39,449 bases of DNA, from the NCBI GenBank assembly GCA_902801165.1, contig CADCHI010000020.1:1-39449 (forward strand), in the 5' to 3' direction. The stretch is from an uncultured Eubacteriales bacterium (GTDB taxonomy: Bacteria > Bacillota > Clostridia > Christensenellales > Aristaeellaceae). The position numbers were made by a program, and so were the translations under genes. Numbering within the stretch: position 1 is the stretch's first letter; every line of letters starts with the position of its first letter. The notes below the pieces were generated by a model. It did not search any database and was not told where the DNA came from. It saw only the letters and a program-made list of their open reading frames with translations. This document shows positions 20,818 to 39,449 of this stretch, piece after piece.

Positions 20818-20871
20818 CCTCAGCACTCCTGTCTATTCATGCGAACCATTTCAAAGACCGCAGTCCCGCGT

Positions 20872-22359: not shown

Positions 22360-22402
22360 ATTTCCTCCTTCTTTCCCTCTGGGATCATGACGAAACGCGC
22401 CT

Positions 22403-23935: not shown

Positions 23936-23938
23936 GAA

Positions 23939-26344
23939 TCAGACCTCCTCCACCGTCGTGTCGGCATAAAAGCCGCGGTTTCTGCCGTCGATGATCGCAC
24001 TCTCTGTTACCGCATAACCGCCCTCCAAGCGGATGTCCTCAGAGGACGCGCCGACCTGCACGTCGAAGCGGCCCCTTTCCACCTTCCAGTTCATGTCCTC
24101 GTCCAGAAAGGCCAGCTGGTCCGCCCGCAGGGTAAAGGCGACGCGCTTCGCCTCCCCCGCCCTGAGATGGATCCGGCAGAAGCCCGCCAGCTCCTTCACG
24201 GGGCGGATCATGGAGGCATAGGGATCGCTGACATACAGCTGGGCCACCTCATCACCATCCACATTGCCAGCGTTGCGCACCGTGAAGCTGATATTCACAC
24301 TGTCGCCGGGACCGATTTCGTCCGGCGAGACCTCCAGGTCCGCATACTCAAACCGAGTGTAGGACAGCCCGTGGCCGAAGAAGTATCGCGGCCTGTGGGA
24401 GCAGCTGGCGTAGTCCTGAAAGCCGATGCTCTCGCCCTGGTGCCAAGAGGAGCCGAATGGATGGTTGTAGAACACCGGAATCTGCCCGGCGTTGCGGGCC
24501 ACGCACACCGGCAGCCTGCCCGCGGGGTTGTAGTCCCCCAGCAGCACGTCTGCCACGGCCTGAGCGCCCATTTCGCCGGGGCACCAGGCCTCCAGGATGG
24601 CGCCCAGGTATTGGTCCGCAATGTCGCTGGAGATGGGCCGTCCGTCGAAGTGCACCCCCGCCATGGGAATGCCCAGTGCCGCCGCCTTTTCGATCAGGCC
24701 ATCCTGGCAGGGCGGCAGGTTGATGAATACGTCGTCCACGCCCTCGCCGGTGGTGGAGATGGAGCCGGAGGTGTACTTGCCGCCGAGGGTGAACAGGATC
24801 AGGTCCGCGCCTTTCATCGCCTCCAGCGCCTCGGCATAGTGAGTTGTATCATCGCCCGCGCAGGGGTAGCCGTGGGCCCAGGCGACCTCGGTCTCCGGCA
24901 GCCGCCGCTTGAGTTCGTCCAGCAGGCTGGGGCAGCCGGGGCACAGCTTGTCCAGCACGGCGTCGAACTCCGGGGTGTCATTCACCTGGATCTGGGTGCC
25001 GGGGACGCGCTCGTAGTCCGTCACGGGACCCTCGCGCTTCACCCCCGCCATGGAGCCCTCCACGGCCAGGATCGCCTCCACCATGCTCAGGTGGGTGTAG
25101 CCCGCGAAGAAGTACCGGGGATTAACCGCGTGGCAGCCGATCACGGCGATCTTCTTCGCCTTCTTCGAAATCGGCAGCGCGCCGCCGTTCTTCAGCAGCA
25201 CCATGCCCTCCCGCGCGCTGCGCAGGGAGAGGGCACTGTCATTCTCCGAGTAGAAGGCTTCCTTCAACGCCTCCCCTTGCGGCGCGAAGGGATGCTCGAA
25301 CAGGCCCATGCGGAACTTTGCCTCCAGCACTCGCAGCACGGCGCGGTCCAGCACCGCTACGTCCGCCTTTCCGGTGTCGAACCACCCGGCCAGCTCCTCG
25401 GTCAGCGTGGCGCGCGTGGGCAGCTCCACGTCCATGCCCGCCTCCAGGCAGGCCAGGCCCGCCTCGGTATCGCTCTCGAACATGTGCTGGGAGTTGTGGG
25501 CATTGCCCATGGCGCCATAGTCCGACACCGCCACGCCGTCGAAGCCCATCTCCTCCCGGAGCAGGTTCGTGAGAATGGCCTTGGACGCGGACACGGCCTT
25601 GCCGTTCAGCGTGCAATAGCAGGGCATGACGCCCCGCAGGCCGGCCTCGGTGATCGCCGCCTGGAAGGGCTTGGCGTAGACCTCCCGCAGCAGGCGCTCC
25701 GGCACCTCGGCGTCCGCGCCGTGGATGCCGCCCTGGGAGTGGTGGAAGCCCAGGAAGTGCTTGGCCACGGATTCCGACCGCAGGCCGCCGGTATCGTCCG
25801 ACTGGATGCCCGCGGTATAGGCCGCGCCCATGGCGGCGGCGAGGGTCGGGTCCTCGCCGTAGGTCTCGCCCTGGCGTCCCATGCGGGAATCCCGGGAGAC
25901 GTCCAGCACCGGCGCGAAGGTCTGCGTCACGCCCACGGCCCGCTCCTGCCGCGCCACCGCCCGGCCGATCTCCTTCTCCAGTTCCGGGTCGAAGCCGGAA
26001 CCCCGGGCGATGCCCGCGGGATAGCTGGTCGCGCCCTGTATGTAAGCCCCGCAGAGCCCCTCCATGTGAAACGCGGCCGGAATGCGGTGCGGGCTTCCCG
26101 CCATGGCCTTTTCCTGGAGCGTCCGCTGCCACTTCGCCGCTTCCTCCAGCGAATCGAGCCGCCGCATCTCCAGCGTGGAATACTGGCCGATGCCGCCCGC
26201 CACCGCCGCGTCCAATTCTCTCTCATACCCAGGTATGGGAAACGCCCCGATCAGCTGCTTAAGCTTTTCGCCGGTCGACATCTTCGAAAGCAAGTCCTTC
26301 GCCCGCTCCCCGGCGGTGAGTTCGGGGTTCATATATCGCTCCAT
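23939..26344 (-). CDS. GH3 beta-glucosidase / beta-xylosidase
   Basis: This is an 801-residue family 3 glycoside hydrolase. It has an N-terminal TIM barrel with the RQGETYGEDP and KHFLGFHHSQGG loops and nucleophile Asp275 in GVAVSDYGAM. The alpha/beta sandwich has IAVIGCHAVNPRYFFAGYTH, and a C-terminal fibronectin-III-like domain follows from about residue 680. It removes terminal beta-linked glucose or xylose. There is no signal peptide. The start at 26344 has GGGAG eight bases upstream; an ATG four codons later also has a site. It begins 30 bp after the isomerase/epimerase-like gene. Confidence 0.94.
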   Translation of the reverse strand: MERYMNPELTAGERAKDLLSKMSTGEKLKQLIGAFPIPGYERELDAAVAGGIGQYSTLEMRRLDSLEEAAKWQRTLQEKAMAGSPHRIPAAFHMEGLCGAYIQGATSYPAGIARGSGFDPELEKEIGRAVARQERAVGVTQTFAPVLDVSRDSRMGRQGETYGEDPTLAAAMGAAYTAGIQSDDTGGLRSESVAKHFLGFHHSQGGIHGADAEVPERLLREVYAKPFQAAITEAGLRGVMPCYCTLNGKAVSASKAILTNLLREEMGFDGVAVSDYGAMGNAHNSQHMFESDTEAGLACLEAGMDVELPTRATLTEELAGWFDTGKADVAVLDRAVLRVLEAKFRMGLFEHPFAPQGEALKEAFYSENDSALSLRSAREGMVLLKNGGALPISKKAKKIAVIGCHAVNPRYFFAGYTHLSMVEAILAVEGSMAGVKREGPVTDYERVPGTQIQVNDTPEFDAVLDKLCPGCPSLLDELKRRLPETEVAWAHGYPCAGDDTTHYAEALEAMKGADLILFTLGGKYTSGSISTTGEGVDDVFINLPPCQDGLIEKAAALGIPMAGVHFDGRPISSDIADQYLGAILEAWCPGEMGAQAVADVLLGDYNPAGRLPVCVARNAGQIPVFYNHPFGSSWHQGESIGFQDYASCSHRPRYFFGHGLSYTRFEYADLEVSPDEIGPGDSVNISFTVRNAGNVDGDEVAQLYVSDPYASMIRPVKELAGFCRIHLRAGEAKRVAFTLRADQLAFLDEDMNWKVERGRFDVQVGASSEDIRLEGGYAVTESAIIDGRNRGFYADTTVEEV

Positions 26345-26374
26345 AATCGCATCTCCCGTTCATTTTCTCTGGTT

Positions 26375-27184
26375 TTACAGTCGCTCTTTCAGCCACTCAA
26401 TATCCCTTTGAAGCGCCGCAAATCGACCGACGCAATTGAAAGCCCCCGTGTCGTACTCGTTTTCCAGCACCACCCAGCCGCCATAGCCGATGTCCCTCAT
26501 GGCGTTCAGGCATTCCTCTGCCTGACCGTGGCCCTCGCCCAGCAGCCTTGAACTCAGCGCCTCCGCCGTGCCGTCCTTCATGTGGACCTGGCAGATCCTG
26601 TCGCCGAGGCGCCTCAGCTGCTCCGCCGGGTCCTCGCCCCGGAAAAACACAGCGTTTTCATTGTCGAAGTAGATTTTGAAGTTGGGGCGGTTCACCCGGT
26701 CACACAACAGCAGGTTTTCCTCGCCGTTCAGCGTGTTCTCGCTGCCGACCACGATGCCGCTCTGCTCCGCCGCCGCGCAGGCCCATTGAAAAAAACGCGC
26801 CGCGGGCTCGATGTCCTCGCGCCCTCGAATGGTGAAGTCCGCGAAGTTGGGGATCTGGAGGATGCCGATGCCGAGGGCCGACGCCGCTTCGATGGCCGCG
26901 GTGACAATCTCGTGGCACAGCGCCTCCTGCGCCGCATCCTTCGGGCGCAGGCTGCAGCACCCGCCCAGCGCGTTCACCGCTAACGCCGGGAACGCCACGG
27001 CGTACTTCTGCCGGGCGTCCAGCCAGTATTTTTGAACGCCCGGGTCAGAAAGCGGCAGGCAGCGCCGCGCTTCTCCCAGGTCAAGCTCCACGCCGTCCAG
27101 CCCGAGCTCCGCCGCCATGCGGCAGGCCATCGGGCCCTGGATAGGCGAGCACCACTCCGCGATACCAATGCGTTTTTCGTTCAT
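26375..27184 (-). CDS. Sugar phosphate isomerase/epimerase-like TIM barrel protein
   Basis: This 269-residue protein belongs to the xylose-isomerase-like / AP endonuclease 2 superfamily. The metal-binding pattern is visible: GVELDLGEA near the N-terminus, GSENTLNGEE in the middle, the QVHMKDG motif and the C-terminal VLENEYD. Members isomerise or epimerise free sugars or inositols, or act as sugar dehydratases. The exact reaction is not assigned. It is the first gene of the hydrolase operon and probably handles a sugar released by the downstream enzymes. The start at 27184 has GGAGG seven bases upstream. Confidence 0.85.
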   Translation of the reverse strand: MNEKRIGIAEWCSPIQGPMACRMAAELGLDGVELDLGEARRCLPLSDPGVQKYWLDARQKYAVAFPALAVNALGGCCSLRPKDAAQEALCHEIVTAAIEAASALGIGILQIPNFADFTIRGREDIEPAARFFQWACAAAEQSGIVVGSENTLNGEENLLLCDRVNRPNFKIYFDNENAVFFRGEDPAEQLRRLGDRICQVHMKDGTAEALSSRLLGEGHGQAEECLNAMRDIGYGGWVVLENEYDTGAFNCVGRFAALQRDIEWLKERL

Positions 27185-27208
27185 ATAATTTCCTCCCATC
27201 ATGCCTCC

Positions 27209-27236
27209 ATTATATCATAATAACGGGACATTACAA
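27209..27236 (-). promoter_or_regulatory. Promoter of the glycan-hydrolase operon
   Basis: The minus strand has TTGTAA (27231-27236), a 16-bp spacer and a perfect TATAAT (27209-27214) ahead of the isomerase-like gene. The -35 box lies in the T-rich tail of the terminator that ends the transporter operon, so the two signals share bases. Confidence 0.65.
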
Positions 27237-27280
27237 AAGCTGCCGTCCGAAACGGTAATGCGTACCGCGGACGGCAGCTT
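27237..27280 (-). terminator. Terminator of the sugar ABC transporter operon
   Basis: A perfect 13-bp stem, AAGCTGCCGTCCG with its complement (27237-27249 and 27268-27280), is followed on the minus strand by TTTTGTAA. It lies 38 bp past the last permease gene. The T tract is short, so some read-through into the hydrolase operon is possible. Confidence 0.8.
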
Positions 27281-27318
27281 CACGATAAAAACGCGATTGC
27301 TTGAAATTCTTTCTGTAA

Positions 27319-28206
27319 TCAGCCCTTCACGCCGCCAATGACGATGCCCTTGACGAAGTACTTCTGCAGGAAGGGGTAGATGACCAGCACCGGCAGCACC
27401 GCGACCACGGCGATGCCCATGCGGATGCCCACCTGCGGAATCCGCATCTGGGAAGCCGCGACGCCCAGGGAGCTGGCGTTTCGGGAGAGGAACTCGATGT
27501 TCTTGATCATGTTGTTCAGGATCATCTGGATGGTGAACAGCCCCTGGTCGGTGACGTAGTACAGGCCGTTGGCCCAGTCGTTCCAGTAGTTGAGGCCCAC
27601 CATCAGCACCAGGGTGACCACCATGGGCTTCGAGAGGGGCACGATCACCGAGCGCAGGATGCGGAACTCCGTGGCCCCGTCCAGCTTGGCCGCCTCGATC
27701 AGCGCCACGGGGATGCTGCTCTGGAAGAAGGAGCGCATCATGATGACGTAGAAGGCGTTCATCATCAGGCCCGGCACGATCAGCGCCCAAATCGTGTTCT
27801 TGATGTGGAAGGTCTGGGCGTACATCATGTACGTGGGCACCAGGCCGCCGTTGAACAGCATCGTGAAGAACAGTATGAAGCTCAGCACCCCGCGATAGGG
27901 CAGGTCCTTCCGGGACAGCGGATAGGCGAACAGGATCGTCAGCAGCAGGTTGGCGGTGGTGCCGATGACCGTCACCACGATGGTCATCACATAGCCGTGC
28001 AGGATGGTGCCCTGGCTGCGGATGATGTAGCGGTAGGTCTCAAGGCTGAACACCTGGGGGAAGAAGCTGTAGCCGTTGCGGGTCAGGGTGGCCTCCTCGG
28101 TGAGGGAGGACATCACCATCAGCAGGAACGGCGCGACGCACAGCACGACCAGGAGGATCATGAAGGCGTGCATCAGGATTTGCTGAACTCTGTCATTTCG
28201 TACCAT
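27319..28206 (-). CDS. Carbohydrate ABC transporter permease, LplC/YtcP type
   Basis: This is a 295-residue inner-membrane permease of the CUT1 sugar-importer class with six transmembrane helices. The cytoplasmic EAA loop is clear, EAAKLDGATEFRILRSVIVP, and contacts the ATPase. The C-terminus with FVKGIVIGGVKG is standard for the LplC/YtcP group, which imports complex oligosaccharides in Firmicutes. No ATPase gene is encoded here; these systems often use a shared MsmK-type ATPase encoded elsewhere. The start has AGGAGG nine bases upstream and lies 18 bp after the other permease gene. Confidence 0.93.
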   Translation of the reverse strand: MVRNDRVQQILMHAFMILLVVLCVAPFLLMVMSSLTEEATLTRNGYSFFPQVFSLETYRYIIRSQGTILHGYVMTIVVTVIGTTANLLLTILFAYPLSRKDLPYRGVLSFILFFTMLFNGGLVPTYMMYAQTFHIKNTIWALIVPGLMMNAFYVIMMRSFFQSSIPVALIEAAKLDGATEFRILRSVIVPLSKPMVVTLVLMVGLNYWNDWANGLYYVTDQGLFTIQMILNNMIKNIEFLSRNASSLGVAASQMRIPQVGIRMGIAVVAVLPVLVIYPFLQKYFVKGIVIGGVKG

Positions 28207-28224
28207 GGATGCTCTCCTCCTTTC

Positions 28225-29172
28225 TCAGAACAGCGCGCTGTCCTTGTCGAGCTTGGAGACGACCAGGTTGGCCGCCATGACCAGCAGGAAGCCGCAGATG
28301 GACTGGAAGAAGCCCGCCGCGGCGGAGCGGCCCACGTCGTTCAACACGATCAGTCCCTTGTAGACGTACACGTCGATGGTGGTGGTCACATCGTACAGCA
28401 GGCCGGAGTCCATGGGCACCTGGTAGAACAGGCCGAAGTCCGAGTAGAACACGCGGCCGATGGCCAGCAGCGTCAGCGTGATGATGGTGGGGCGCAGGCC
28501 CGGCAGGGTCACGTGCCAGAGGCTCTGCCAGCGGTTCGCTCCGTCGATCACCGCCGCCTCGTACAGGCTGGTGTCGATGCCGATGACGGTGGCATAGTAG
28601 ATGATGGAGTTGTAGCCGAAGGTCTTCCACAGGTAGATGAAGGTGAGTATGAAGGGCCAGTACTTCGGCGTCATGTACCAGTTCAGCCGCTGGCCGCCCA
28701 GCAGGGACTTGTTGATGAAGCCCGCGTCGGTGGACAGGAAGGCGTAGCCGATGTAGCTGACGACCACCATGGAGATCAGGTACGGGATCAGGATGAAGAT
28801 CTGGTAGAGCTTCTGGGCGCTCTTGTTGCGCAGCTCGTTCATGATGACCGCCACGGCGATGGCCAGCACGGTGCCCAGCACGATGAACACGGCGTTGTAG
28901 CCCAGGGTGTTGCGGATCATGATGGCGGCGTCCCGGGTGGCGAACAGGAACTTGAAGTTCTTGAGGCCGGCCCAGGGGCTTCCGAAGATGCCCTTGGAGT
29001 AGTCGAACTGCTTGAAGGCCATCACCAGGCCGCCGATGGGCAGGTAGTTGTTGATGACCAGGTAGATCAGGCCGGGCAGCAGCATCAGGTAGAGCTCGCG
29101 ATGGCTCCACACGTTCCCCCAGCTGCCTTCGGGCTTGATCGCCACAGCGCCGCCGCGCTTTTTCTTGCTCAT
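28225..29172 (-). CDS. Carbohydrate ABC transporter permease, LplB type
   Basis: This is a 315-residue permease of the LplB group, partner of the downstream LplC-type protein. It has a basic N-terminus (MSKKKRGG) and helices starting at YLMLLPGLIYLVINNYLPI. The EAA-loop equivalent is YEAAVIDGANRWQSLWHVTLP. The start at 29172 has GGGAG seven bases upstream; the open frame extends farther, but that part has no ribosome site. It probably forms the membrane channel for the oligosaccharide delivered by the solute-binding protein encoded upstream. Confidence 0.93.
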   Translation of the reverse strand: MSKKKRGGAVAIKPEGSWGNVWSHRELYLMLLPGLIYLVINNYLPIGGLVMAFKQFDYSKGIFGSPWAGLKNFKFLFATRDAAIMIRNTLGYNAVFIVLGTVLAIAVAVIMNELRNKSAQKLYQIFILIPYLISMVVVSYIGYAFLSTDAGFINKSLLGGQRLNWYMTPKYWPFILTFIYLWKTFGYNSIIYYATVIGIDTSLYEAAVIDGANRWQSLWHVTLPGLRPTIITLTLLAIGRVFYSDFGLFYQVPMDSGLLYDVTTTIDVYVYKGLIVLNDVGRSAAAGFFQSICGFLLVMAANLVVSKLDKDSALF

Positions 29173-29251
29173 GTGCTCTCTCCCTTTCTCGCGTTCGCTT
29201 CGGTTCTCGTTGGCTTCATGGAAGCGCTGATCCGCTGTCCGCCGTCGGGCG

Positions 29252-29318
29252 GGCGGCGCATCGCCGCCTCCACGGAGGGGGCTTGTGGGAATCGGGGCTG
29301 CCACATGTGGGCAGCCCC
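29252..29318 (-). promoter_or_regulatory. Intercistronic stem-loops between binding protein and permease genes
   Basis: Two perfect hairpins lie in the 161-bp gap: a 9-bp stem GGGGCTGCC at 29294-29302 with 29310-29318, and a 7-bp stem GGCGGCG at 29252-29258 with 29262-29268. Neither has a T tract. Such structures after a binding-protein gene commonly protect that part of the message and raise its relative expression; that role is inferred here. Confidence 0.55.
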
Positions 29319-29333
29319 GGGGAAGGATTTGTC

Positions 29334-30806
29334 TTATGCCTGCTCAGCCAGGTAGGCGTCCAGCTGGGCCTGCATGTCGGCGATGACATCGTAGAAGCCG
29401 ATGGCGGTCAGCTCGGACTGGATGGCGGGCAGCACATCGTCCAGGGCCACGGTGCCGGTCAGCAGCACGTCGCGGTACTTCTCCTCGATGTTCTTGTAGG
29501 CGGCCACGAAGTCGCCCTTGTCGCTGGTGTCATAGAAGAAGCCGAAGGCGGCGGGCACGCGGACGGAGTCATCCCACTCGGCCACGGTGGCGGCGTAGTC
29601 ATCCACGGTCGCGGTGGCGCGGACGGGGTTCAGCAGGTAGTTGGGATAGGTGGCGGAAGCGGTGAAGCCGCCATAGGGCTCGTTCTCAGCGGTCATGCCC
29701 TCGGGATACTCGGCCTTGCCGTCGGCGTTCAGCACGTAGTGCTCGCCTTCGATGCCGAAGGACAGCAGGGTGTGCAGCTTGGCGTCGGTGTACAAGGCGC
29801 ACAGCAGGGTGAAGGCCTCGTCGGGATGGGCGCTGTTGCTGCTGATGCCGAACTGCAGGTTGCCGATGTCGGCGCAGTTGGCCATGGGGTCCACGATGAT
29901 GCCACCGGTCACGGTGTTGGGATAGAACATCTCCAGGGGATCGATGTCGGCGTTGTGCAGGGTGGCGAAGGCCGCGCCGGCGGTGACCATGTCGGAACCC
30001 TCGCGGGTGTTGCTGATGGCGTCAGCCATGATCAGGCCGTCGTTGTACCACTTGTTGGTGTAGGCGCAGAAGTCGCGGAAGCTGTCGGTCTCGAACATGC
30101 TCTTGATCTGGGTGTCGGTCAGCTCACCGTGGTCGGCATTGTTCAGGAAGCCAAAGGTGGTCAGGCCGACGGAGCGGATGTAGGGGCGAATCCAGGTCAT
30201 GTCTTTGGAGGACTGGGGCACCAGGGTGTAGATCTCCGGATGGGCCTCGTGCACCTGATACAGCACCTCGCCCAGCTTGTCCATGCTGTCAATAGAGGCG
30301 GCGTCGATGCCCATCTCCTCGACGATGTCCTTGTTCATAACCACGGTCTCATAGCCGCCGTACTGGTACTTGCGCACGAAGCCGTACAGCTTGCCGTTCA
30401 TGCTGGAAGCCTTCAGCTCGGCTTCGGTGAACACGCTCTTGACCTCGTCGGGCGCGGCCTCGAAGCGGTCGGTCAGGTCGATCAGCTGGCCGTTGCGAAC
30501 GTAGTTCGCCAGCTGGCCGCCGTCGGTGAAGTAGCAGGTGATGTCCAGCTCGGGGGTGGTCATGGCCAGGTTGGCGGCCTGCTCGAAGTTGCCGATCTCG
30601 ATGTAGACCAGCTTGGTCTGGATGCCGTAGTTCTCGGCCAGGTGCTCGTTGATGGCGGCCTGGACCTTCTGGATGGCCTCTTCGGTATAGGGGGCCAGGG
30701 TCGGGATGTACAGGGAGACGGTCACCATGTCTTCAGCCATGGCGGCGGGGATCATCGCGCTGAGCATCATCAGGACGCACAGCAGAACGGCGACGAACTT
30801 CTTCAT
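29334..30806 (-). CDS. Extracellular solute-binding protein of the sugar ABC transporter
   Basis: This is a 490-residue substrate-binding protein, LplA-like, with a C-terminal DUF3502-type region (VPAAFGFFYDTSDKG through EEKYRDVLLTG). It would capture an oligosaccharide outside the cell and hand it to the two permeases. A 24-residue signal peptide MKKFVAVLLCVLMMLSAMIP ends in AAMA before Glu-Asp, a signal peptidase I site. There is no lipobox cysteine at the cleavage point, although Gram-positive binding proteins are normally lipoproteins. The start has GGAGG eight bases upstream. The gene is separated from the regulator by a terminator. Confidence 0.9.
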   Translation of the reverse strand: MKKFVAVLLCVLMMLSAMIPAAMAEDMVTVSLYIPTLAPYTEEAIQKVQAAINEHLAENYGIQTKLVYIEIGNFEQAANLAMTTPELDITCYFTDGGQLANYVRNGQLIDLTDRFEAAPDEVKSVFTEAELKASSMNGKLYGFVRKYQYGGYETVVMNKDIVEEMGIDAASIDSMDKLGEVLYQVHEAHPEIYTLVPQSSKDMTWIRPYIRSVGLTTFGFLNNADHGELTDTQIKSMFETDSFRDFCAYTNKWYNDGLIMADAISNTREGSDMVTAGAAFATLHNADIDPLEMFYPNTVTGGIIVDPMANCADIGNLQFGISSNSAHPDEAFTLLCALYTDAKLHTLLSFGIEGEHYVLNADGKAEYPEGMTAENEPYGGFTASATYPNYLLNPVRATATVDDYAATVAEWDDSVRVPAAFGFFYDTSDKGDFVAAYKNIEEKYRDVLLTGTVALDDVLPAIQSELTAIGFYDVIADMQAQLDAYLAEQA

Positions 30807-30861
30807 TGTGAAATCCTCCTGTCTTTTTTGTTCGGGAAGCCTGTTCCCATCTGACATCTTG

Positions 30862-30906
30862 ATTATAAAAAAACGAGGCCGCAAATCATATCCATTTTGC
30901 GACCCC
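30862..30906 (-). terminator. Terminator after the two-component genes, overlapping a -10 box
   Basis: On the minus strand an 11-bp stem (two G-U pairs, arms 30896-30906 and 30875-30885, loop of 10) is followed by seven T residues at 30867-30873. This is a strong intrinsic terminator downstream of the response regulator. The last T of the tract begins a perfect TATAAT (30862-30867) that could serve the binding-protein gene, although I find no good -35 box. Confidence 0.8.
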
Positions 30907-30966
30907 GATGATTGATTTTCCGACTTTCTGATCGTTTTCTTGTGGGTTTTGCCAAAAAAGCGATCA

Positions 30967-32058
30967 TTAAATCCCATTTTCCATTGACTTTCTGTAATCG
31001 GTGGGCGTCCTTCCGGTGAGCTTCCGGAACATCTGGGTGAAGTTGTTGTAGTTGTCGTAGCCCACCTTGGAGGCGATGACCGTGATGGGCAGGTCGGTGT
31101 TGGTCAGCAGCTTGACGGCGTAATCCACCTTTTGTTTCAGCACGAACTCCTTGTAGCCCATGCCCGTCTCCTTTTTGAAGGCCCGGGAGAAGTAATCCTC
31201 GTTCAGGCAGGCGTGCTGTGCCGCTTCGCTGCGGGAGATCATGTGGTCCATGTTCTGGCCGAGATAGTGGATCACCTCTCGGACGCGCTGCTCGGTGGTG
31301 AGCTCCTGGCCGTTGCCCTCCCTGCGGGCGCGGGCATCGAAGGCGCGCAGGCAGCGGTCCACCGCGTCCAGCAGCTCCCCGCGGTTCTCATAGCGCTTTC
31401 CCAGCGCGGCCTCATCCTCGCCGCCGTCCGCCAGCAGCGCCTTGAAGTCCGTCTTCAACAGGTGCGCCGCCACCCGGCAGGCTTCGAGAAAGGCATAGTA
31501 CAGCCGCCGGCGCTCGCCCTTGGCCCGCTTGTTCTGCGCCTCGGCCTGGTCCAGCAGCGCTGTGATCCGATTGCGCACCATCTGGGTCTCCCCCCGCTCG
31601 ATCCAGCGGCTCCACTCCATGGTCTCCTCCTGGGCGCTGGACAGCGTCTCGTCCACGCTGCGGCTCAGCTCGATCAGATTGCGCCGCTCCGCCAGGCTGC
31701 CGACAGCCCGCTCCAGCACCTTCTCGATCTCCGGGATAGCCGCCGGCTGGAGGATGTAGTCGTAGGCCCCGTTGCGCAGGGCTTCCCGGGCATAGGCGAA
31801 GTCGGCATGGGAGGTCAGGAAGATGCACAGCACCTCGGGGTGATGCTCCCGCTGCCAGCGCTGCAGGGCGATGCCGTCCTCTCCGGGCATCTCGATGTCC
31901 GTCAGCAGGATGTCCACGGCCTCGCCGTCCAGTATGGCCCTGGCATCGTGGACGTTCTCAGCCGTCAGCACGCAGTCCACGCCCAGCTTATTCCAGTCCA
32001 CCAGCTTCTTAGTCGCTTCCAGTATGCGCACCTGGTCGTCCACCAGCAGCACCTTCAC
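30967..32058 (-). CDS. YesN-type response regulator with AraC DNA-binding domain
   Basis: This is a 363-residue transcription regulator. The receiver domain at residues 1-125 has the acidic pair D7-D8 and phosphoacceptor Asp54 in LLTDIEMPGEDG. The conserved lysine position reads Gln104 (YILQPA), a substitution I recall from some YesN relatives. A linker helix region follows, and then an AraC-type double helix-turn-helix from about residue 260 (VIASKVGYDNYNNFTQMFRK). The start is GTG, overlapping the kinase stop as GTGA. It probably activates the adjacent transporter and hydrolase operons in response to an extracellular sugar signal. Confidence 0.92.
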   Translation of the reverse strand: MKVLLVDDQVRILEATKKLVDWNKLGVDCVLTAENVHDARAILDGEAVDILLTDIEMPGEDGIALQRWQREHHPEVLCIFLTSHADFAYAREALRNGAYDYILQPAAIPEIEKVLERAVGSLAERRNLIELSRSVDETLSSAQEETMEWSRWIERGETQMVRNRITALLDQAEAQNKRAKGERRRLYYAFLEACRVAAHLLKTDFKALLADGGEDEAALGKRYENRGELLDAVDRCLRAFDARARREGNGQELTTEQRVREVIHYLGQNMDHMISRSEAAQHACLNEDYFSRAFKKETGMGYKEFVLKQKVDYAVKLLTNTDLPITVIASKVGYDNYNNFTQMFRKLTGRTPTDYRKSMENGI

Positions 32059-33767
32059 GACCCTTTCCTCCCCTCTTCCCGCTCGTCGCCTTTCGCCCTC
32101 TCCAGCGGCAGGATCAGCTCGCTGACCGCGCCGTCGTCATTGTAGAAGCCCCAGCTGGCCGCGTCGCCGTAGTGGAAGCGGCAGCGCTTGAGCAGGTTGA
32201 CGATGCCCACGCCCAGGCCCTCCCGGTCCGCAGGCACGTGGCTGTTCAGCATGTCCAGCACCTCCGGCGGGTATCCGCCGCCCCGGTCGGCATAGGAGAT
32301 GTTCAGCGCCTCCCCGTCCTCGCCCTTCAGCCGGGCCACCCTCAGCCAGATCTCCAGCCGCTCGCGCCCGCTGCGCTTGGCGTATTTGACTGAGTTCTCC
32401 ACGAAGGTCTGCAGGGCCAGTATGGGGATCTGCAAATCGAGGTCCGCCTCGTCTATGTGGATCGCGCAAACGATTTCCCGCTGGGTCAGCTGCCGCTGCA
32501 GCTCCACGTAGTTTTCGACGAACGCCTTCTCCTCCCGCAGCGTCACGAAGGGCTTGTCCGGCTGCAGCAGGTAGCGCAGGTGCGTGGACAGGCAGAGCAG
32601 GAACTGCTCCAGCGTGTCGTATTCCTTCAGTTGCAGCATATAGTAGGCGTTTTTCAGGCAGTTCGTGTAGAAGTGAGGCGCCAGCTGCAGCTGGGTGTAT
32701 TGCAGCTGGGTGCGCTGCCGCTCCATCTGCTCCTCATAGGCCTGGTTCTTGTACTGCTCGATGCCCTTCAGCATGGTGTTGACCGCCTGGCGCACGTCCT
32801 CGATCTCCTGGATGCGGTTGGGCGCCTGGAAGTCGGCGTCCCACTGGCCGCCCTGGAGCTGGGTCATCGTCACCCTCATGTCCTCGAGAGGCACGGACAG
32901 CTCCCGGATGGCGAAGCGCCGCACGACGACGAAAAGCACCAGCAGCAGCAGTATGGCCGCCGCGATGGCGATGTGCTGGCCGTTGACCCAGCGGCCCCAG
33001 GATTCGTCCACCACGCGCACCAGCGTCACCCCGGTGGAGAGGTTGCCCTGGGCATAGGCCGTGTATTCCCACAGCCGGTTCGCGCCGACCGTCAGCTTCC
33101 CGGCGTCGATCTCCAGGTTCTCCACCCCGCAGCCGGGAATCCAATGGAACGCGCCGCCGCTGACATAGCCCCAGTGAGCATGATCGTTCCCCGAGGGCAG
33201 TACCGATTTCAGGCTGACAAACCCGCAGATCTTCGCGCCGGGCTTCTGCATGGACAGGAAGTAATAGTCGCTGTCCGAGCCCTCCACGACCATGGAATCG
33301 ACAGAAAAGCTGTCTACGCTGAGGTCCCTGCCGAGGGCGTTGAGCAGCTCCTGGTCCTGGTAGGAAATCGAACTGTCCATGTGATAGAGCACCGGCCTGA
33401 GGTCGCTGTAGACCATCATCAGGCCGCCGATGTTTCCGCTGGTCTGCATTTGCAGCTTCAACATATTCAGGGTGTTGTAGATACGGGCGGTGTTCTCCGC
33501 GCCGCTTTCTTCTGCCGGACTGCCTTCAAAAAAGGCCCCCGTGGAATAGATCGCGTTGACCGCCCTGCGCATATTGTCGTAGGCGCGGTTCAGCTCGCTG
33601 TTGGCGCTCTGCAGCAGCTCCACGTCATGATCATCCACCTGCCGATGATGCTGGCTCATGGTGAACACCAGCAGGGCCCCGGCAAGCAGCAGCAGCGCCG
33701 CCATGCCGATCACCAGGATCCGCAGCACGCTCTTTCGCAGGCTGAACATCGTTTTCTGATGCTTCAC
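32055..33767 (-). CDS. YesM-type sensor histidine kinase
   Basis: This is a roughly 570-residue membrane kinase. It has a transmembrane segment at the N-terminus (LVIGMAALLLLAGALLVF), an extracellular sensor of about 220 residues, a second helix (HIAIAAAILLLLVLFVVV) and a HAMP-like linker. The phosphoacceptor motif is LQLAPHFYTNCL, and the ATPase domain has the N box QTFVENSVKYA and glycine boxes DRGGGYPPE and GLGVGIVNLL. I chose a GTG at 33767, ten bases after GGAGG. A GTG at 33773 is too close to that site; the ATG at 33749 is an alternative. It signals to the overlapping YesN-type regulator. Confidence 0.9.
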   Translation of the reverse strand: MKHQKTMFSLRKSVLRILVIGMAALLLLAGALLVFTMSQHHRQVDDHDVELLQSANSELNRAYDNMRRAVNAIYSTGAFFEGSPAEESGAENTARIYNTLNMLKLQMQTSGNIGGLMMVYSDLRPVLYHMDSSISYQDQELLNALGRDLSVDSFSVDSMVVEGSDSDYYFLSMQKPGAKICGFVSLKSVLPSGNDHAHWGYVSGGAFHWIPGCGVENLEIDAGKLTVGANRLWEYTAYAQGNLSTGVTLVRVVDESWGRWVNGQHIAIAAAILLLLVLFVVVRRFAIRELSVPLEDMRVTMTQLQGGQWDADFQAPNRIQEIEDVRQAVNTMLKGIEQYKNQAYEEQMERQRTQLQYTQLQLAPHFYTNCLKNAYYMLQLKEYDTLEQFLLCLSTHLRYLLQPDKPFVTLREEKAFVENYVELQRQLTQREIVCAIHIDEADLDLQIPILALQTFVENSVKYAKRSGRERLEIWLRVARLKGEDGEALNISYADRGGGYPPEVLDMLNSHVPADREGLGVGIVNLLKRCRFHYGDAASWGFYNDDGAVSELILPLERAKGDEREEGRKGS

Positions 33768-33967
33768 TTCCACATTACCTCCTGCCACACAGCACAACAC
33801 CGCGCTTCCGATTTATGTGGCTGCCTTCGGCCAAAACCTCCACAAGCAGCCGTAGGACAATGATGCACAGCGCCTGAATTGAATCCAGTACCGCCTTTGG
33901 GGCACATTTTTCTTCCAACGGGATTTCTGAGGATTTGCGTTGTCCATCGATTGTATGAGCCAATTGA

Positions 33968-33996
33968 ATTTTATCATGTACGTGCATCAATATCAA
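33968..33996 (-). promoter_or_regulatory. Promoter of the two-component operon
   Basis: The minus strand shows TTGATA (33991-33996), a 17-bp spacer and TAAAAT (33968-33973). The message would have a leader of about 190 nt before the kinase start. I see no other clear element in that leader. Confidence 0.65.
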
Positions 33997-34000
33997 GAGT

Positions 34001-34418
34001 CCTGAAAGTCATTTGTCCTCCAAGGGGCAAAATACTCCGACCTTTGCCCGTCCTGGTTCAAGTTCGTTTTTTCACCCTCTTTGCTCCTTCATTTCCCTCC
34101 CCTTGCGACCCCCATCCCCCGCCCGGTGCCCGATTTGGGAATCGTCGTGGGCACACCGTGGTTCCCGTCGTGGTTCCCACTACTGTTCCCGCCTAAGTTC
34201 CAAGCTGTGGTTTTCTCTTTCCGAAACCACCTTTCAAGGGCTGGAAGCCCTGGTATTACGGCGTTTTGAATCTCTATCAGCTCCATTGGCATGTACTTGG
34301 ATTGGGTGCCGAAGCAGGTTCCCACGATGATGCCGATACTGCTCCAGAAGCCGGTTCCCGGGATGTTTCCCAGATTGCTCCCGCATGGTTTCCGCACGGT
34401 TCCCGAACTCTGTTTTTG
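34001..34418. repeat. GTTCCC-rich stretch without a convincing gene
   Basis: About six GTTCCC words and several near copies (TTTCCC, CTCCC) occur between roughly 34160 and 34410, often as GGTTCCC. A minus-strand frame (34089-34568) reads through them as repeated GN/GT dipeptides but has no ribosome binding site and runs into the 172-bp repeat, so I do not accept it as a gene. The repeats could be iteron-like sites or the relic of a mobile element. The remainder of this stretch shows nothing I recognise. Confidence 0.45.
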
Positions 34419-34590
34419 GAAATAAAAAGGCTCCGGAAGCGGTGCCTGCGCACGGTTTCCGGAGCTGGTTTTTGGTTCGGTTTTCATAGGAGCAAAGGGA
34501 AAACAATTTTGCCCCAAACAGGGAAAACGAGGTTGCCCCTCGACATGTACCTTATTCCCACTCGACAAGAAATTTCTGTGAATATCTTAT
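34419..34590 (-). repeat. 172-bp dispersed repeat, copy B, with terminator hairpin
   Basis: This is the ungapped second copy of 15884-16055, in the same orientation. The hairpin arms are at 34430-34438 and 34457-34465, followed on the minus strand by a run of T residues (AAAAA at 34424-34428 on the plus strand). It lies downstream of the permease/GGDEF/EAL gene, though 450 bp away, and upstream of the two-component operon. Confidence 0.75.
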
Positions 34591-35039
34591 TCTTATTATC
34601 TATACACCCATTTCATATCTTTATTTGATTATATTTCGTCTTGTTCACACCTTTTCAGTCTTTTTCAGTATCATAGCAGTATCACCGTGATACTGTTGTT
34701 TACAGATTAGAACTCTCTATGTTCAATAAGATTTATAATACAAAAACTCGATTATCGCAAGTCCTTTTCGGTATCGATCGAAAGAAACTGCCAAACAAAA
34801 GGTTCATGTGCGTCAAACCAATCAATACTGTTTCGGGATTGATGGTGTTCAAGGTAGAGAAAGTAGTCTTCCTGCAATTGAAGCCCGCCTCCTTCGACTG
34901 TTCACCACAGTTGGACAACTGACTCCACCTCGACAGCATCATCAGACAAAAGTGTACCCTTACTTGTAACTATAAACAGTGTCCACTTCCTGTCACCTTT
35001 GTGCCAGGTCTCTGCGCATCGTCTATTTGAGGCCTTGGA
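34591..35039. other. AT-rich gene-free segment
   Basis: This stretch is clearly lower in GC than the rest of the window, especially 34591-34930. Two overlapping 67-69 codon frames on opposite strands (34719-34922 and 34733-34942) lack ribosome sites and resemble no family I know. The composition suggests recently acquired or decaying DNA. No terminator is obvious directly after the gene ending at 35040. Confidence 0.4.
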
Positions 35040-38000
35040 TTATCCTTTGCGCACGTTGACCTGTTCGATGAGGAACCGATCGAAATCCTCCGGCGGAACG
35101 GGTTTTGAGAAATAATAGCCCTGCACATATGAGCAGCCGAGCTCCTTGAGCGCCAGGTATTGCTCCTCTGTCTCCACGCCCTCCGCCACGACGGGCACAT
35201 TCAGGTAATTCGCAATGTCGATGATCAGCTCGATCATACGCACATCGCGCTGTTCGTTGAAGGCGCTTCTCACAAAGCTCATGTCCAGCTTCAGCACGTC
35301 GATGGGCAACTGGGTCAGCATGCCAAGGGAAGAATAGCCTGTTCCGAAGTCGTCCATCTCGATTCTGAAGCCTGTACCCACGCCGCGCAGCTCCCGTGCC
35401 ATGAGTATTACCTGCTCGGAATCTCCGGTATAAGCGGATTCCGTGATCTCAAGCATCAAATCCTCGGCTGTCAGATGCTGGCCTTCAAGAATATCCTGAA
35501 AGATGCCCTTCAAATTCGGCGTGAGCATGTCGATTCTGGATACGTTTACCGAAACCGGAATCGAGAAGCCGAAGCGATCCTTCCAGTCTCTGATCCGGGC
35601 TGCCGATTCCCTCCAGACAAACTCATCCAGCTCCAGGATCAGGCCGTTGTCTTCCAGGAGAGGGATGAACACGCCGGGGCTGATCACGCCAAGCTCGGGA
35701 TGATCCCAGCGAACCAGTGCCTCCGCGCTGGAAAGCACGGGCTTGTCTTGACGAATATCATATTTCGGCTGAAAGAACACCTTGAAGCGACGATCCCGCA
35801 AGGAAGGCTTGAAGTCCTCCAACAGCCGCTCCCGGTACAGGTCGGCCTTGTGCATTTCATCGTCATAAATGCCCACCGCCTTCACAACGCCGGTCTTTAC
35901 CGTGTTGGCCGCCGTTTTGGCATAGTCAAAGCGCCGCTCGATTTCAAGCGTTTTGTCAACGTTCGAGAATACGCCCATGCGCAGTCGAACACGGTTTGAT
36001 GAAACATCCTCGCCACTAAGGCCCTCGGATATCCTTTCCAACAGCGATTCATAATCGTCCCTGTGCGGGCAGTAGATCAGGAACATATCCGAGCCTCTCC
36101 GGCAAGCGACGCCGCCGATGTCGCGGGAAATCTTTCGGATGCGGTCGCCGATGCGTCCCAGCACGGCATCCCCATACTGCTTTCCGTATCGCTCGTTGAT
36201 CATGTGGAAGTGATTGACATCCACGACGATGGCGTCCATCGCCATCTCGGTATAGTGTTGATCGTACAGCCTGACATAGCGCAGGAAGTAGTCCAGGTTG
36301 AGCAGTCGGGTCAGGCTGTCGCGCTCAGTGGAATGGATGATATTGCGCTTCTCAGACAGCTCGATGCAGCGGTTGACGCGCGCCAGCACGATCTCCCAGG
36401 AGGGGTAAGGCTTGGGAATAAAGTCCATCGCGCCGATTTTGAGGCACTCCACTTCCGCGCTCTGTTCCGCAGTGAGCACGATGACGGGAATGTCCTTCAG
36501 CTCAGCTTCTTCCATCATGACCTTCAGCACATCCATACCGGACATACGCGGCATCTGAAGATCGAGCATCACCAGTGCCAGCTCGTCCTTGCGGGCTTTG
36601 AGCTGCTCCAGCGCTTCGATGCCGTTTGAAGCAAATACCAGGTCATAGGCATCTTCCAGCATGTTCCCCAGCAGCATCATATTGACGGCCTCGTCCTCAA
36701 CGATGAGGATGTGCTGTTTCAGGTGCATGACCTCTGAATCACCGGCCATAGGTATGATGGCCTTTCCCGTCTCCGAATCATCCCGTGTCGCCGCGCCAAG
36801 CCCCTTCAACAGCTGCTTTTCATCATACATCAGGCCGTCGGCGCGCTCAAACACGGCATGATAGCTCTTGTCCTCTCCGGGCTTGAACTCCGATAATCCA
36901 CCGGAGACGACGACTCCGCCGCTGCCGATGTGCGCCACCGACCGATCGTGCAGCGCCAGTACAAGCTCCTTGCGAATGACATAGTCCCTGCCGGTCAATA
37001 TGATCACGAACTCGTCGCCGCCGATTCGAAAAACCGGGCTGTGCTGAAAAATGTCGCAGATCATCTGAAAGGCCTTCTTGATATACTCGTCTCCGGCCTG
37101 GTGCCCAAGGGTATCGTTGATCTTCTTGAGTCCGTTGACATCGCAGACGACAACCGCGAATTTCTCCAACGTTCCCGCTTCGATGGCCGTGTTGATCTCC
37201 TTCTCACGCTGGAGATAGGCGGTCTTGCTCTTTGCGCCGGTCATCGGGTCTTTGAAAGCCGTTTCCCTGGCGGCGTCCCGCTCGGCGACGGCCTTGGTCT
37301 CCCACTTCTGCATGGAGAGGTGATTGATCAGCATTGCGCCGAGGGCCATGATGAACAGTCCGGCGACGATCACCGTATTGATCGCGTCCGTCCGATGGAT
37401 CTCGTCGAGCCGGTCCCGGATAAACGCCGCTTCATCCTGGCCGGAAACGCCTTCTTCGGCGTTGGTGACATAGTATTCCTGAACGGCGTAGATCGCATCG
37501 CTCGTCGCCTTCTCATCCACGCGCCCGGACCAGATCATGGCCATGAAGACCACCAGCGCCAGCAGCGCGATCCATACCACGATCGCCTTGCCGAAGCGCC
37601 GGGCGTGGTCCTTTTTGATGATCTGTCGGAAGTAGAAGAAGCCGATGACCGTCCACACCATGACCAGTATGTAGGTCTCCGTCTCCAGCATGGCATCGCC
37701 AAACAGGTTGGGGAAGAGCATGTAGACACCAAATAACAGCATCGTCGCAAACCCTATAAGCCCCGTGACGGTCTCTCTGCGCCGCTTCAGCTTTCTCGCG
37801 GTCTTGAGGGCGGCGGCGGAAACAAAGCCGTACAGCATGGTCGCGCCCAGCGTGGTCACGTCCACGATCCAGCCGATGGCGGTTCTACCGACGAAAGGAA
37901 TGACAGCGCTGATCGCCGCCACCAGGATCAGCGCTTCTGCCGGGGTACCCCTGTCGTTCAGCTCGGAAAACCGACTGGGCAGAATGCCGTCTCGGGCGGT

Positions 38001-38999
38001 GGCCAGGAGCAGCCGGCTCAACGCTCTCAGATTGCCAATCAGGCTGGTCAGAACCAGCGCGAGCAGCGCGGCCATCAGGATCGCCACGCCAAAATCGCCC
38101 ATATAGTGATGGGCGGCATAGAATGCCGGGAGCCCTTCGATGCCGCTGTAGTCGCCCAGATTGCGGATATAGTCGAGCCAGCTGGAGCAGCCCTCGGGAT
38201 AGGCCGATATGCTCAGAAGCGTAACAAATACATAAATCGCCGTCGAGACGAGCACGGAGGCCACCAGTATGCGATGCAGTCTGTCCCGCCTGAAGTTGAA
38301 TTCCTCCGCCGAATGGGTGATGTTTTCAAAGCCAATGAAGGCCCATGGCGAGATAAACGCGATCCTCAGGCTCTGTGCAATCGCGCTCTTTTCAGGCACA
38401 AAGGCCGGCGCCCAGCCGCCCCGATGCGCCACAGCCGCAACGACGAAGCACAGGGCGATCCCGGCGGTGAACACGCACACGAGCACGACCATTAAGCGAG
38501 CCATCGCCCTTTCGTTGCGAACGCACAGCAACGTTACACCCGCAATCGCGGCCAGCGTCAGCAGAGCCTCGCCCAGGTATACCTCGTATCCAAATACCGT
38601 GAAGAGATAGCCTGTCTTGAACGTATCGCCTATGAAAAAGCGGGCGAACAGCGGCAGACTCGTAGCGTTGGCCCAGAATATGGAAATATAGGTCAGACTG
38701 AGAAACCAGAAGACCAGGAAGGCGCGGTCATAGCCGAACACCTCCTTGGTGTAGTCGTAGATGCCGCCCGCGCGGGGATAGCGGCTTGCCATAAAGGAGA
38801 AGTTCCGGCATATGATAAGCATGAGCGCCATGCCGATGAGCAGACCGAGGATGCTCCCCAGCGGTCCCGCCTGGGCAAGATAGGTGTTGCTGGTAACCAC
38901 CAGCGAGCCCCAGCCCACGCTGGTACCCACCGCCAGCGCCCACGCCGCGGCAGGTGAAAGATATTGCTGCAAACCCATCTTCGGCTTTTGTTCTGACAT
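35040..38999 (-). CDS. APC permease - GGDEF - receiver - GGDEF-like - EAL fusion protein
   Basis: This 1319-residue membrane signalling protein begins with an amino acid-polyamine-organocation (APC) permease fold at residues 15-460, about 12 helices. Two more helices (470-490 and 538-560) flank a short external segment. The cytoplasmic part has a GGDEF domain with an intact GGDEF at 660-664. Next comes a receiver domain (acidic pair E768-D769, phosphoacceptor Asp813, Thr843, Lys863). A degenerate GGDEF-like domain (GSDMF at 969-973) follows, and then an EAL domain. EAL residues are E1093, N1152, E1184, D1216-D1217, K1237, E1273 and Q1293, so phosphodiesterase activity is likely. It probably makes and/or breaks cyclic di-GMP in response to an amino-acid-like ligand. 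The start has GGGGAG nine bases upstream. Confidence 0.93.
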   Translation of the reverse strand: MSEQKPKMGLQQYLSPAAAWALAVGTSVGWGSLVVTSNTYLAQAGPLGSILGLLIGMALMLIICRNFSFMASRYPRAGGIYDYTKEVFGYDRAFLVFWFLSLTYISIFWANATSLPLFARFFIGDTFKTGYLFTVFGYEVYLGEALLTLAAIAGVTLLCVRNERAMARLMVVLVCVFTAGIALCFVVAAVAHRGGWAPAFVPEKSAIAQSLRIAFISPWAFIGFENITHSAEEFNFRRDRLHRILVASVLVSTAIYVFVTLLSISAYPEGCSSWLDYIRNLGDYSGIEGLPAFYAAHHYMGDFGVAILMAALLALVLTSLIGNLRALSRLLLATARDGILPSRFSELNDRGTPAEALILVAAISAVIPFVGRTAIGWIVDVTTLGATMLYGFVSAAALKTARKLKRRRETVTGLIGFATMLLFGVYMLFPNLFGDAMLETETYILVMVWTVIGFFYFRQIIKKDHARRFGKAIVVWIALLALVVFMAMIWSGRVDEKATSDAIYAVQEYYVTNAEEGVSGQDEAAFIRDRLDEIHRTDAINTVIVAGLFIMALGAMLINHLSMQKWETKAVAERDAARETAFKDPMTGAKSKTAYLQREKEINTAIEAGTLEKFAVVVCDVNGLKKINDTLGHQAGDEYIKKAFQMICDIFQHSPVFRIGGDEFVIILTGRDYVIRKELVLALHDRSVAHIGSGGVVVSGGLSEFKPGEDKSYHAVFERADGLMYDEKQLLKGLGAATRDDSETGKAIIPMAGDSEVMHLKQHILIVEDEAVNMMLLGNMLEDAYDLVFASNGIEALEQLKARKDELALVMLDLQMPRMSGMDVLKVMMEEAELKDIPVIVLTAEQSAEVECLKIGAMDFIPKPYPSWEIVLARVNRCIELSEKRNIIHSTERDSLTRLLNLDYFLRYVRLYDQHYTEMAMDAIVVDVNHFHMINERYGKQYGDAVLGRIGDRIRKISRDIGGVACRRGSDMFLIYCPHRDDYESLLERISEGLSGEDVSSNRVRLRMGVFSNVDKTLEIERRFDYAKTAANTVKTGVVKAVGIYDDEMHKADLYRERLLEDFKPSLRDRRFKVFFQPKYDIRQDKPVLSSAEALVRWDHPELGVISPGVFIPLLEDNGLILELDEFVWRESAARIRDWKDRFGFSIPVSVNVSRIDMLTPNLKGIFQDILEGQHLTAEDLMLEITESAYTGDSEQVILMARELRGVGTGFRIEMDDFGTGYSSLGMLTQLPIDVLKLDMSFVRSAFNEQRDVRMIELIIDIANYLNVPVVAEGVETEEQYLALKELGCSYVQGYYFSKPVPPEDFDRFLIEQVNVRKG

Positions 39000-39278: not shown

Positions 39279-39449
39279 ATGACCGGCAAACAGAAGGGTA
39301 TCACCCTGGCCTCCGCCATAGGAAGCGTCATACTTGTATTCATATTGGTTTTCGGAACGATGTGGATGGGCAGCAACGCCAGGAATGACACGGAATCGGC
39401 GGTCCGCTCCGTCAGCCTTCTCTACCTGGATGAGCTGGCGGGCCGCCGG
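39279..39449 (+). CDS. N-terminus of a membrane-anchored signalling protein (partial)
   Basis: The only plus-strand gene runs off the right edge after 57 codons. It starts MTGKQKGITLASAIGSVILV and continues with one membrane helix up to about residue 30. An external segment follows with NARNDTESAVRSVSLLYLDE. Such an N-terminal anchor followed by a dimerising helix is common in diguanylate cyclases and sensor kinases of Clostridia; the C-terminal domain is outside the window, so its type is unknown. The ATG at 39279 has AAGGCAGG just upstream. It is divergent from the permease/EAL gene. Confidence 0.6.
   Translation, partial: MTGKQKGITLASAIGSVILVFILVFGTMWMGSNARNDTESAVRSVSLLYLDELAGRR

Follow-up and report, generated by a model that had tools for sequence, protein, structure and literature searches.

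Domain organisation of the five-domain gene

The window studied here is a stretch of 39,449 nucleotides (positions 1 to 39,449 of contig CADCHI010000020.1, our C20) from the genome of an uncultured Eubacteriales bacterium, which is assembled in 98 contigs and is 88.6% complete. Near the end of the window lies one long gene, called hereafter the five-domain gene, in which a permease of the APC family is followed by a predicted membrane hairpin and by GGDEF, receiver (REC), degenerate GGDEF and EAL domains. The features discussed in the text are listed below (TM, transmembrane helix; residue numbers refer to the five-domain protein).

35040..38999, minus strand: five-domain gene (APC permease, membrane hairpin, GGDEF, REC, degenerate GGDEF, EAL), 1319 amino acids, ATG start, domains by Pfam
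37713..38954, minus strand: APC permease core, residues 16-429, AA_permease_2, with G-W30-G in TM1, N111/T113 in TM3 and P218-W219...E225 in TM6
38097..38210, minus strand: TM7-TM8 loop, residues 264-301, from the alignment
37455..37586, minus strand: predicted long helix, residues 472-515, TM13 and the beginning of the extracytoplasmic loop, from the model
37257..37433, minus strand: predicted long helix, residues 523-581, last part of the extracytoplasmic loop, then TM14 and a signalling helix leading into GGDEF, from the model
36813..37256, minus strand: first GGDEF domain, residues 582-729, intact signature at 660-664, inhibitory-site (I-site) RxxD absent (HSPV at 653-656)
36390..36710, minus strand: receiver domain, residues 764-870, with phospho-acceptor Asp813, Thr843 and Lys863
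35895..36323, minus strand: second GGDEF domain, degenerate, GSDMF at 969-973, from a whole-genome GGDEF search
35100..35816, minus strand: EAL domain (phosphodiesterase), residues 1062-1300, with all catalytic residues kept
39279..39449, plus strand: divergent kinase-like gene, first 57 codons (the contig end cuts the rest), matching the N-termini of hybrid kinases

The initial annotation, made from the sequence alone, had proposed that an APC permease fold serves as the input of an enzyme of cyclic di-GMP (c-di-GMP) turnover. The fold itself is supported: the AA_permease_2 match (5.8e-33; 114.9 bits against a cut-off of 27) spans the whole core, from position 3 to 405 of a profile of 427, and in a Foldseek search with an AlphaFold 2 (AF2) model of residues 1-748, built from 76 sequences (mean pLDDT 84.3, pTM 0.69), APC transporters ranked first (SLC7A10, y+LAT1, AdiC and GkApcT, with TMt values of 0.83 for AdiC 3ob6_A and 0.76 for GkApcT 6f34_A). 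The permease part is predicted from this model to have the APC/LeuT fold. The segment that follows, residues 470-581, is not a plain linker, being modelled as two long helices (472-515 and 523-581). With the topology assigned by eye, these are predicted to be TM13 and TM14 of a hairpin that turns on the extracytoplasmic side, and the second of them runs into the GGDEF domain. The other Pfam matches are Response_reg (1.6e-20), EAL (6.2e-59) and GGDEF in two stretches, the best of which is 582-729 (2.3e-36); neither a STAC nor a kinase domain was found by Pfam in this protein.

The enzymatic part also proved to be as initially described, and its features extend well beyond the window protein. 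In the first GGDEF domain, the signature G660-F664 is intact, the catalytic letters are kept in 76 of 76 aligned rows, and D620, N628, D629, H633 and D637, which we take to be the metal and guanine residues, are equally invariant. The RxxD inhibitory site, which is not required for diguanylate cyclase activity, is replaced by HSPV in all 76 rows. Among the 58 five-domain rows, the second GGDEF domain is never canonical: GADTF is found in 30 of them and GSDMF solely in the window protein. By contrast with this degenerate domain, the receiver (E/D768, D769, D813, T843 and K863) and the EAL domain (E1093-A-L, N1152, E1184, D1216, D1217, K1237, E1273 and Q1293) keep each of the expected residues in 58 of 58 rows. 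Each domain folds in a second model, of residues 562-1311 (pLDDT 82.3). A search for c-di-GMP-I riboswitches, the controls of which were silent as well, found nothing. More than 100 extra residues follow the EAL domain in 46 of the 70 five-domain open reading frames (ORFs) collected below (L020, L028 and others); the window protein is without them. In the two such proteins scanned, this extra C-terminus gave no Pfam domain beyond one sub-cut-off match inside EAL, and against local profiles there was no confident match either, the best being PAS at a probability of 3.2%; it is perhaps PAS-like.

Which part of the membrane portion would do the sensing may be judged from the conservation of the 76 rows. 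One could suppose that the permease is a mere membrane anchor or dimer scaffold and that the hairpin loop, or the receiver alone, senses the signal; the hairpin does resemble a small two-helix sensor, and it sits just before the output domain in the aligned classes. We regard this as improbable, since the extracytoplasmic loop of the hairpin (493-540) is the least conserved segment, with a majority-residue identity of 0.49 (TM11 comes next, at 0.55), while the highest values are those of TM1 (0.85), TM3 (0.85), TM6 (0.80), TM10 (0.79) and TM8 (0.78), and W30 and E225 are kept in 76 of 76 rows. TM1, TM3, TM6, TM8 and TM10 are the helices that line the pathway in APC transporters, and a carrier of 12 TM helices with an invariant pocket would be needless for anchoring. 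The permease pocket is our preferred candidate for the sensing element.

Occurrence of the fusion in other genomes

The survey covered 592 genomes and one profile scan of genome contigs. That the five-domain frame could be an assembly join of two genes, the objection foreseen in the initial annotation, is ruled out because near-full-length homologues exist in 14 of 24 other genomes of the same genus (59-81% identity, starting at residues 1-29 and ending at 1313-1317) and because the isolate Lachnospiraceae bacterium AC2029 (L128) has, by Pfam, a protein with the same set of five domains on a contig of 3.86 Mb. Two of the 14 homologues contain in-frame stops (one in G014, two in G006), and in G001 the homologue is split over two frames.

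Taking the own genome, the 24 of the same genus and 16 of the same order together, a match at ≤1e-30 was found in 30 of 41. Over the own genus there is a match in 26 of 28 genomes, own included, as compared to only 4 of 121 in the own order, namely the own genome, one permease-kinase (G033) and two unfused permeases. In a draw from the phylum, 10 of 398 genomes matched at 1e-60: four with long fused frames (own included), five with unfused frames (411-532 codons) and one with a broken frame. The unit of permease and hairpin is therefore common in its own genus and patchy outside. The three fused cases besides the own genome, G401, G069 and G286, are permease-kinases according to local profiles. 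In the Pfam scan, which covered G069 and G401, the kinase assignment was confirmed for one G069 protein and one G401 protein gave just a sub-cut-off ATPase match; G286 stands on the local profiles.

Further relatives were collected by scanning genome contigs with a ten-sequence permease-hairpin profile; at least 581 of the 598 candidate stretches encode relatives, and the best 80 of the 581 were kept. Many of their records come from rumen or other ruminant-gut samples or bear RUG names, which presumably denote metagenome-assembled genomes from the rumen. Two appear from their titles to be isolates, namely L128 (Lachnospiraceae bacterium AC2029) and L122 (Ruminococcus sp. YE71). Sequences labelled Coriobacteriaceae, Chloroflexi and Alphaproteobacteria mix within the permease tree described below, which may reflect binning error or transfer.

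One input on several outputs

Among 129 permease ORFs (the window and loci L017-L135), classified with local profiles built from Pfam-annotated proteins and with some genes counted twice, 70 have the architecture APC-GGDEF-REC-GGDEF-EAL and 29 are APC-GGDEF. Histidine kinase (HK) forms make up 7 APC-HK-REC-REC, 5 APC-HK-REC, 2 APC-PAS-HK-REC-REC and 1 APC-PAS-HK, the last cut by the end of its locus. There remain 2 APC-PAS-GGDEF, 1 broken frame and 12 cases of APC alone; among these 12, L107 and L122 turn out to be APC-HD_5 by Pfam and L053 is whole and unfused, the others being cut, short or split. Pfam, applied to ten permease proteins from relatives, gave six fused architectures besides the unfused L053. 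In the relatives, then, permease and hairpin precede GGDEF, PAS-GGDEF, HK-REC, HK-REC-REC, PAS-HK and HD_5, and a hairpin with a varying loop is visible by eye in the aligned permease-kinases and in L053. Permease plus hairpin is an input shared among several signalling proteins. The initial annotation mentioned neither the hairpin nor this sharing, nor the kinase-like gene that begins at 39279. The opposite direction of control, in which the enzymes would regulate the permease so that transport is governed by c-di-GMP, would be permitted equally by the anatomy of the five-domain protein. We consider it highly improbable, since the same permease-hairpin is also joined to histidine kinases and HD_5, where a role as input is the simpler one.

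A tree was made from 109 permease rows, leaving out near-copies (>85%) with the same architecture and cores of less than 440 residues. The method was a quick one without bootstrap, 32 of 106 inner branches are open, and the tree was rooted by hand on eight unfused cousins, which form one starred branch with the 101 other rows on the opposite side. Over the 101 sensor-side rows the architectures interleave, with 26 changes as compared to a least possible number of 9, which indicates that outputs have been repeatedly swapped, split or joined.

Some individual loci deserve mention. The unfused permease L053 (L053:4100-5800, 567 amino acids) belongs to the sensor clade, keeps the hairpin as judged by eye and is divergent to a GGDEF-EAL gene; it may signal in trans. 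In the own genome, on contig C5, the first membrane helices of an APC permease are directly joined to the end of a receiver domain (L039:4041-4526); this remnant of another permease-sensor adjoins a long PAS-HK-REC-REC frame and looks like an internal deletion. The own genome also has two REC-GGDEF-EAL-GGDEF paralogues (L036:1684-6444 and L037:3217-5448), which match the second half of the five-domain protein at 54-55% identity, and one of the two adjoins an HK-REC-REC gene.

Sensor permeases compared to their unfused cousins

An alignment of 115 sensor rows (L053 and split frames included) with 10 unfused rows revealed three differences in the permease itself. At residue 225, in TM6, every one of the 115 sensors has Glu, while nine of the ten unfused cousins have Asp and one has Gly. 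The TM7-TM8 loop has 38 residues in 114 sensors and 39 in one, against 27 in eight cousins and 33 in the other two. At position 228 the sensors have Ser, Thr, Ala or Cys, and all ten cousins have Pro. A matched hairpin is also absent from the cousins. Two candidate marks were rejected: a lysine of the Na2-like site, a position located by alignment, is uninformative on transport because the sensors lack it (all 115 have F, L, I or M) and so do the cousins (L in 10 of 10), and the GWG motif of TM1 with Trp30 is no sensor mark, since 7 of the 10 cousins share it.

By alignment, residue 225 corresponds to Asp237 of the CAT homologue GkApcT, which is reported to be needed for function, the alanine mutant being inactive; there, the contacts to the ligand are mostly made by the backbone of TM1 and TM6 (PMC5803215). 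The TM6 Asp needed for transport by GkApcT is thus absent from the sensors, but the change to Glu is conservative and the Asp does not define every APC member. These comparisons suggest a pocket that would be kept for binding while the transport step is altered; Glu225 leans towards a receptor that transports little or nothing, with the same reservation about a conservative exchange. Conversely, the protein could be a transceptor sensu stricto, i.e. a working transporter that imports its substrate and signals its own flux, the cyclase being driven by turnover and not just by binding; the initial annotation had likewise allowed for sensing during transport. The APC fold with its conserved pocket would suit this, the unfused cousins are permeases of ordinary length, some of them close to catabolic genes, and CbrA is reported to transport histidine (PMC7096432). 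We judge it unlikely all the same: the Asp-to-Glu difference argues weakly against it because it is conservative, the TM7-TM8 loop is longer in every sensor, and the Ks-Amt5 fusion shows that transport can be lost (PMC5764959).

As to the ligand, clues were sought by scanning 10 hand-picked neighbours of five unfused loci (L164 was left out). A class-III aminotransferase lies within about 2 kb of the permease in three of them, L156, L157 and L160, in the last on the opposite strand with one gene between. L156 also has a sulfoacetaldehyde acetyltransferase (772 bits, cut-off 676), and an alanine dehydrogenase lies in L157 (513, cut-off 392). In L158 an aldehyde dehydrogenase scores 441 against the methylmalonate-semialdehyde model, narrowly missing its cut-off of 448.5. 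For the three aminotransferases the best models are generic subfamilies, and no model naming taurine or gamma-aminobutyric acid (GABA) was reached; the neighbour scanned in L159 is a phosphoesterase, without any hint of a ligand. The neighbourhoods point weakly to taurine and other omega-amino acids as ligands of the unfused cousins.

Two modules and a neighbouring kinase

A separate REC-GGDEF-EAL gene adjoins the APC-GGDEF gene in 6 of 25 loci, as compared to 1 of 52 for the five-domain gene (Fisher p 0.004). This is as expected if the five-domain gene fuses both halves. In L063 and L066 the two adjacent frames could be frameshifted five-domain genes, but this cannot hold for L072 and L089, where REC-GGDEF-EAL lies upstream of APC-GGDEF. 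The five-domain chain joins two modules, APC-GGDEF and REC-GGDEF-EAL, which are separate genes in some relatives. It had been suggested initially that one chain switches between making and destroying c-di-GMP. Both enzyme halves are indeed present; the idea of a single switch fares less well, and two separately controlled halves fit better, given that some relatives encode them as two genes.

In 12 of the 52 five-domain loci a gene next to the five-domain gene encodes a kinase (7 plain hybrid kinases and 5 permease-kinases). In the close relatives L056-L058 and L060 the gene order is HK-REC, REC-GGDEF-EAL, APC-HK-REC-REC and five-domain gene. This order is not seen in the window, where 450 bases are available upstream of the five-domain gene. 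What is found there is the 57-codon piece at 39279-39449, which has seven good matches outside its own loci at 53-89% identity (L126, L123, L096, L104, L025, L133 and L026) and one weak match besides (L055, 36%). Five of the seven sit in HisKA-HATPase-REC-REC frames adjoining permease-GGDEF genes, with a likewise divergent arrangement in L123; in L025 and L026 no kinase domain was found at the matching place, and the L026 frame is cut by the end of the locus. The gene at 39279 is the probable partner hybrid kinase of the five-domain protein.

A possible mechanism and its relation to known systems

We think it rather probable, though by no means assured, that the five-domain protein is a transporter-derived receptor whose cyclase is set by a ligand bound in the pocket of the permease and whose phosphodiesterase is set, via the receiver, by a partner kinase. 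A small ligand resembling an amine or an amino acid, held in the pocket between TM1, TM3, TM6, TM8 and TM10, would bias the permease between its outward- and inward-facing states. This motion, to judge from the model, would be passed to the TM13-TM14 hairpin. Since the final helix of the hairpin extends into the first GGDEF domain, the cyclases of two chains could be aligned in this way, and c-di-GMP synthesis would be set. As the gene neighbourhood suggests, the neighbouring hybrid histidine kinase would phosphorylate the receiver at Asp813, and the receiver would in turn set the activity of the EAL phosphodiesterase by way of the degenerate second GGDEF domain.

Several observations weigh against this scheme. 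Kinase linkage is a minority situation, found in 12 of 52 five-domain and 3 of 25 APC-GGDEF loci, a difference that is not significant (Fisher p 0.36; flanks of 1.5 kb on both sides were available in just 32 of the 52 and 20 of the 25). The second model does not fix the arrangement of its domains (pTM 0.47), and a search of the own genome, at its 88.6% completeness, gave no PilZ protein, although the control was positive in 5 of 14 genomes. Finally, none of the kinase activities of CbrA was significantly affected by L-histidine (PMC7096432), and fusion alone is therefore no proof of control by a ligand.

The scheme could be extended to a new general class of bacterial receptors, the APC-hairpin class, in which transport would be lost or reduced and which would be marked by the TM6 Glu, the longer TM7-TM8 loop and the output hairpin. 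It would serve cyclases, EAL and putative HD_5 phosphodiesterases and histidine kinases, chiefly in rumen-type Clostridia, and would read small omega-amino acids or amines (taurine, beta-alanine, GABA). We put this wider proposal forward tentatively, as something that may well turn out otherwise.

GGDEF/EAL proteins possess other membrane input domains, MASE being one of them. In the 5TMR-LYT GGDEF/EAL proteins (PMC11109136) a membrane input is likewise joined to a cyclase and a phosphodiesterase; here, in contrast, a full transporter forms the input and the two GGDEF domains have a receiver between them. GkApcT, AdiC and CAT share the fold, the G-x-G of TM1 and the TM6 motif, but they are without an output domain, and GkApcT has the TM6 Asp in place of the sensor Glu. 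The closest parallels are fusions to kinases. CbrA of Pseudomonas (SLC5-STAC-PAS-histidine kinase) uses a LeuT-fold transporter as N-terminal signalling input and has a small two-helix membrane element, although this, CbrX, is a separate peptide bound to the transporter; it differs by its SLC5 family, cytoplasmic STAC bundle and kinase output, as compared to APC, TM13-TM14 hairpin and c-di-GMP enzymes here (PMC13022988). Ks-Amt5, an ammonium transporter-histidine kinase, is likewise described as a repurposed transporter that passes a conformational change to its fused output without a HAMP domain, but its fold is that of Amt, it is trimeric and its output is a kinase (PMC5764959). The fusion of a transporter to a signalling output is therefore already known, while an input of the APC family, a hairpin of this kind and an output in c-di-GMP turnover do not figure in the passages on these two proteins. 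In keeping with the initial annotation, which knew of no characterised APC-GGDEF-REC-EAL protein, a search of titles and abstract beginnings found no paper describing such a fusion, or any other that joins an amino acid permease to kinase domains or domains of c-di-GMP turnover; the search did not extend to subscription journals or domain-architecture databases, and a catalogue entry may exist.

If true, our reading would extend transporter-derived receptors from the kinase fusions CbrA and Ks-Amt5 to c-di-GMP turnover. It would offer a natural series of one input on several outputs, with the unfused cousins as controls, in which the long-standing problem of how carriers turn into receptors is made directly testable (TM6 Asp/Glu, TM7-TM8 loop and hairpin across cousins, sensors and outputs), and it would provide an initial idea of the signals that control c-di-GMP in little-studied gut bacteria.

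Other features of the window

Downstream of the five-domain gene, about 1 kb (33850-35040) has no evident gene by eye and contains repeated GTTCCC-type words. The inverted and direct repeats detected there are short two-copy matches only; a 16-nt inverted repeat lies at 34430-34465. Further on, positions 18781-33800 are occupied, again as judged by eye, by a plant-polysaccharide cluster with glycoside hydrolases, a sugar ABC transporter and a YesMN-like two-component pair.

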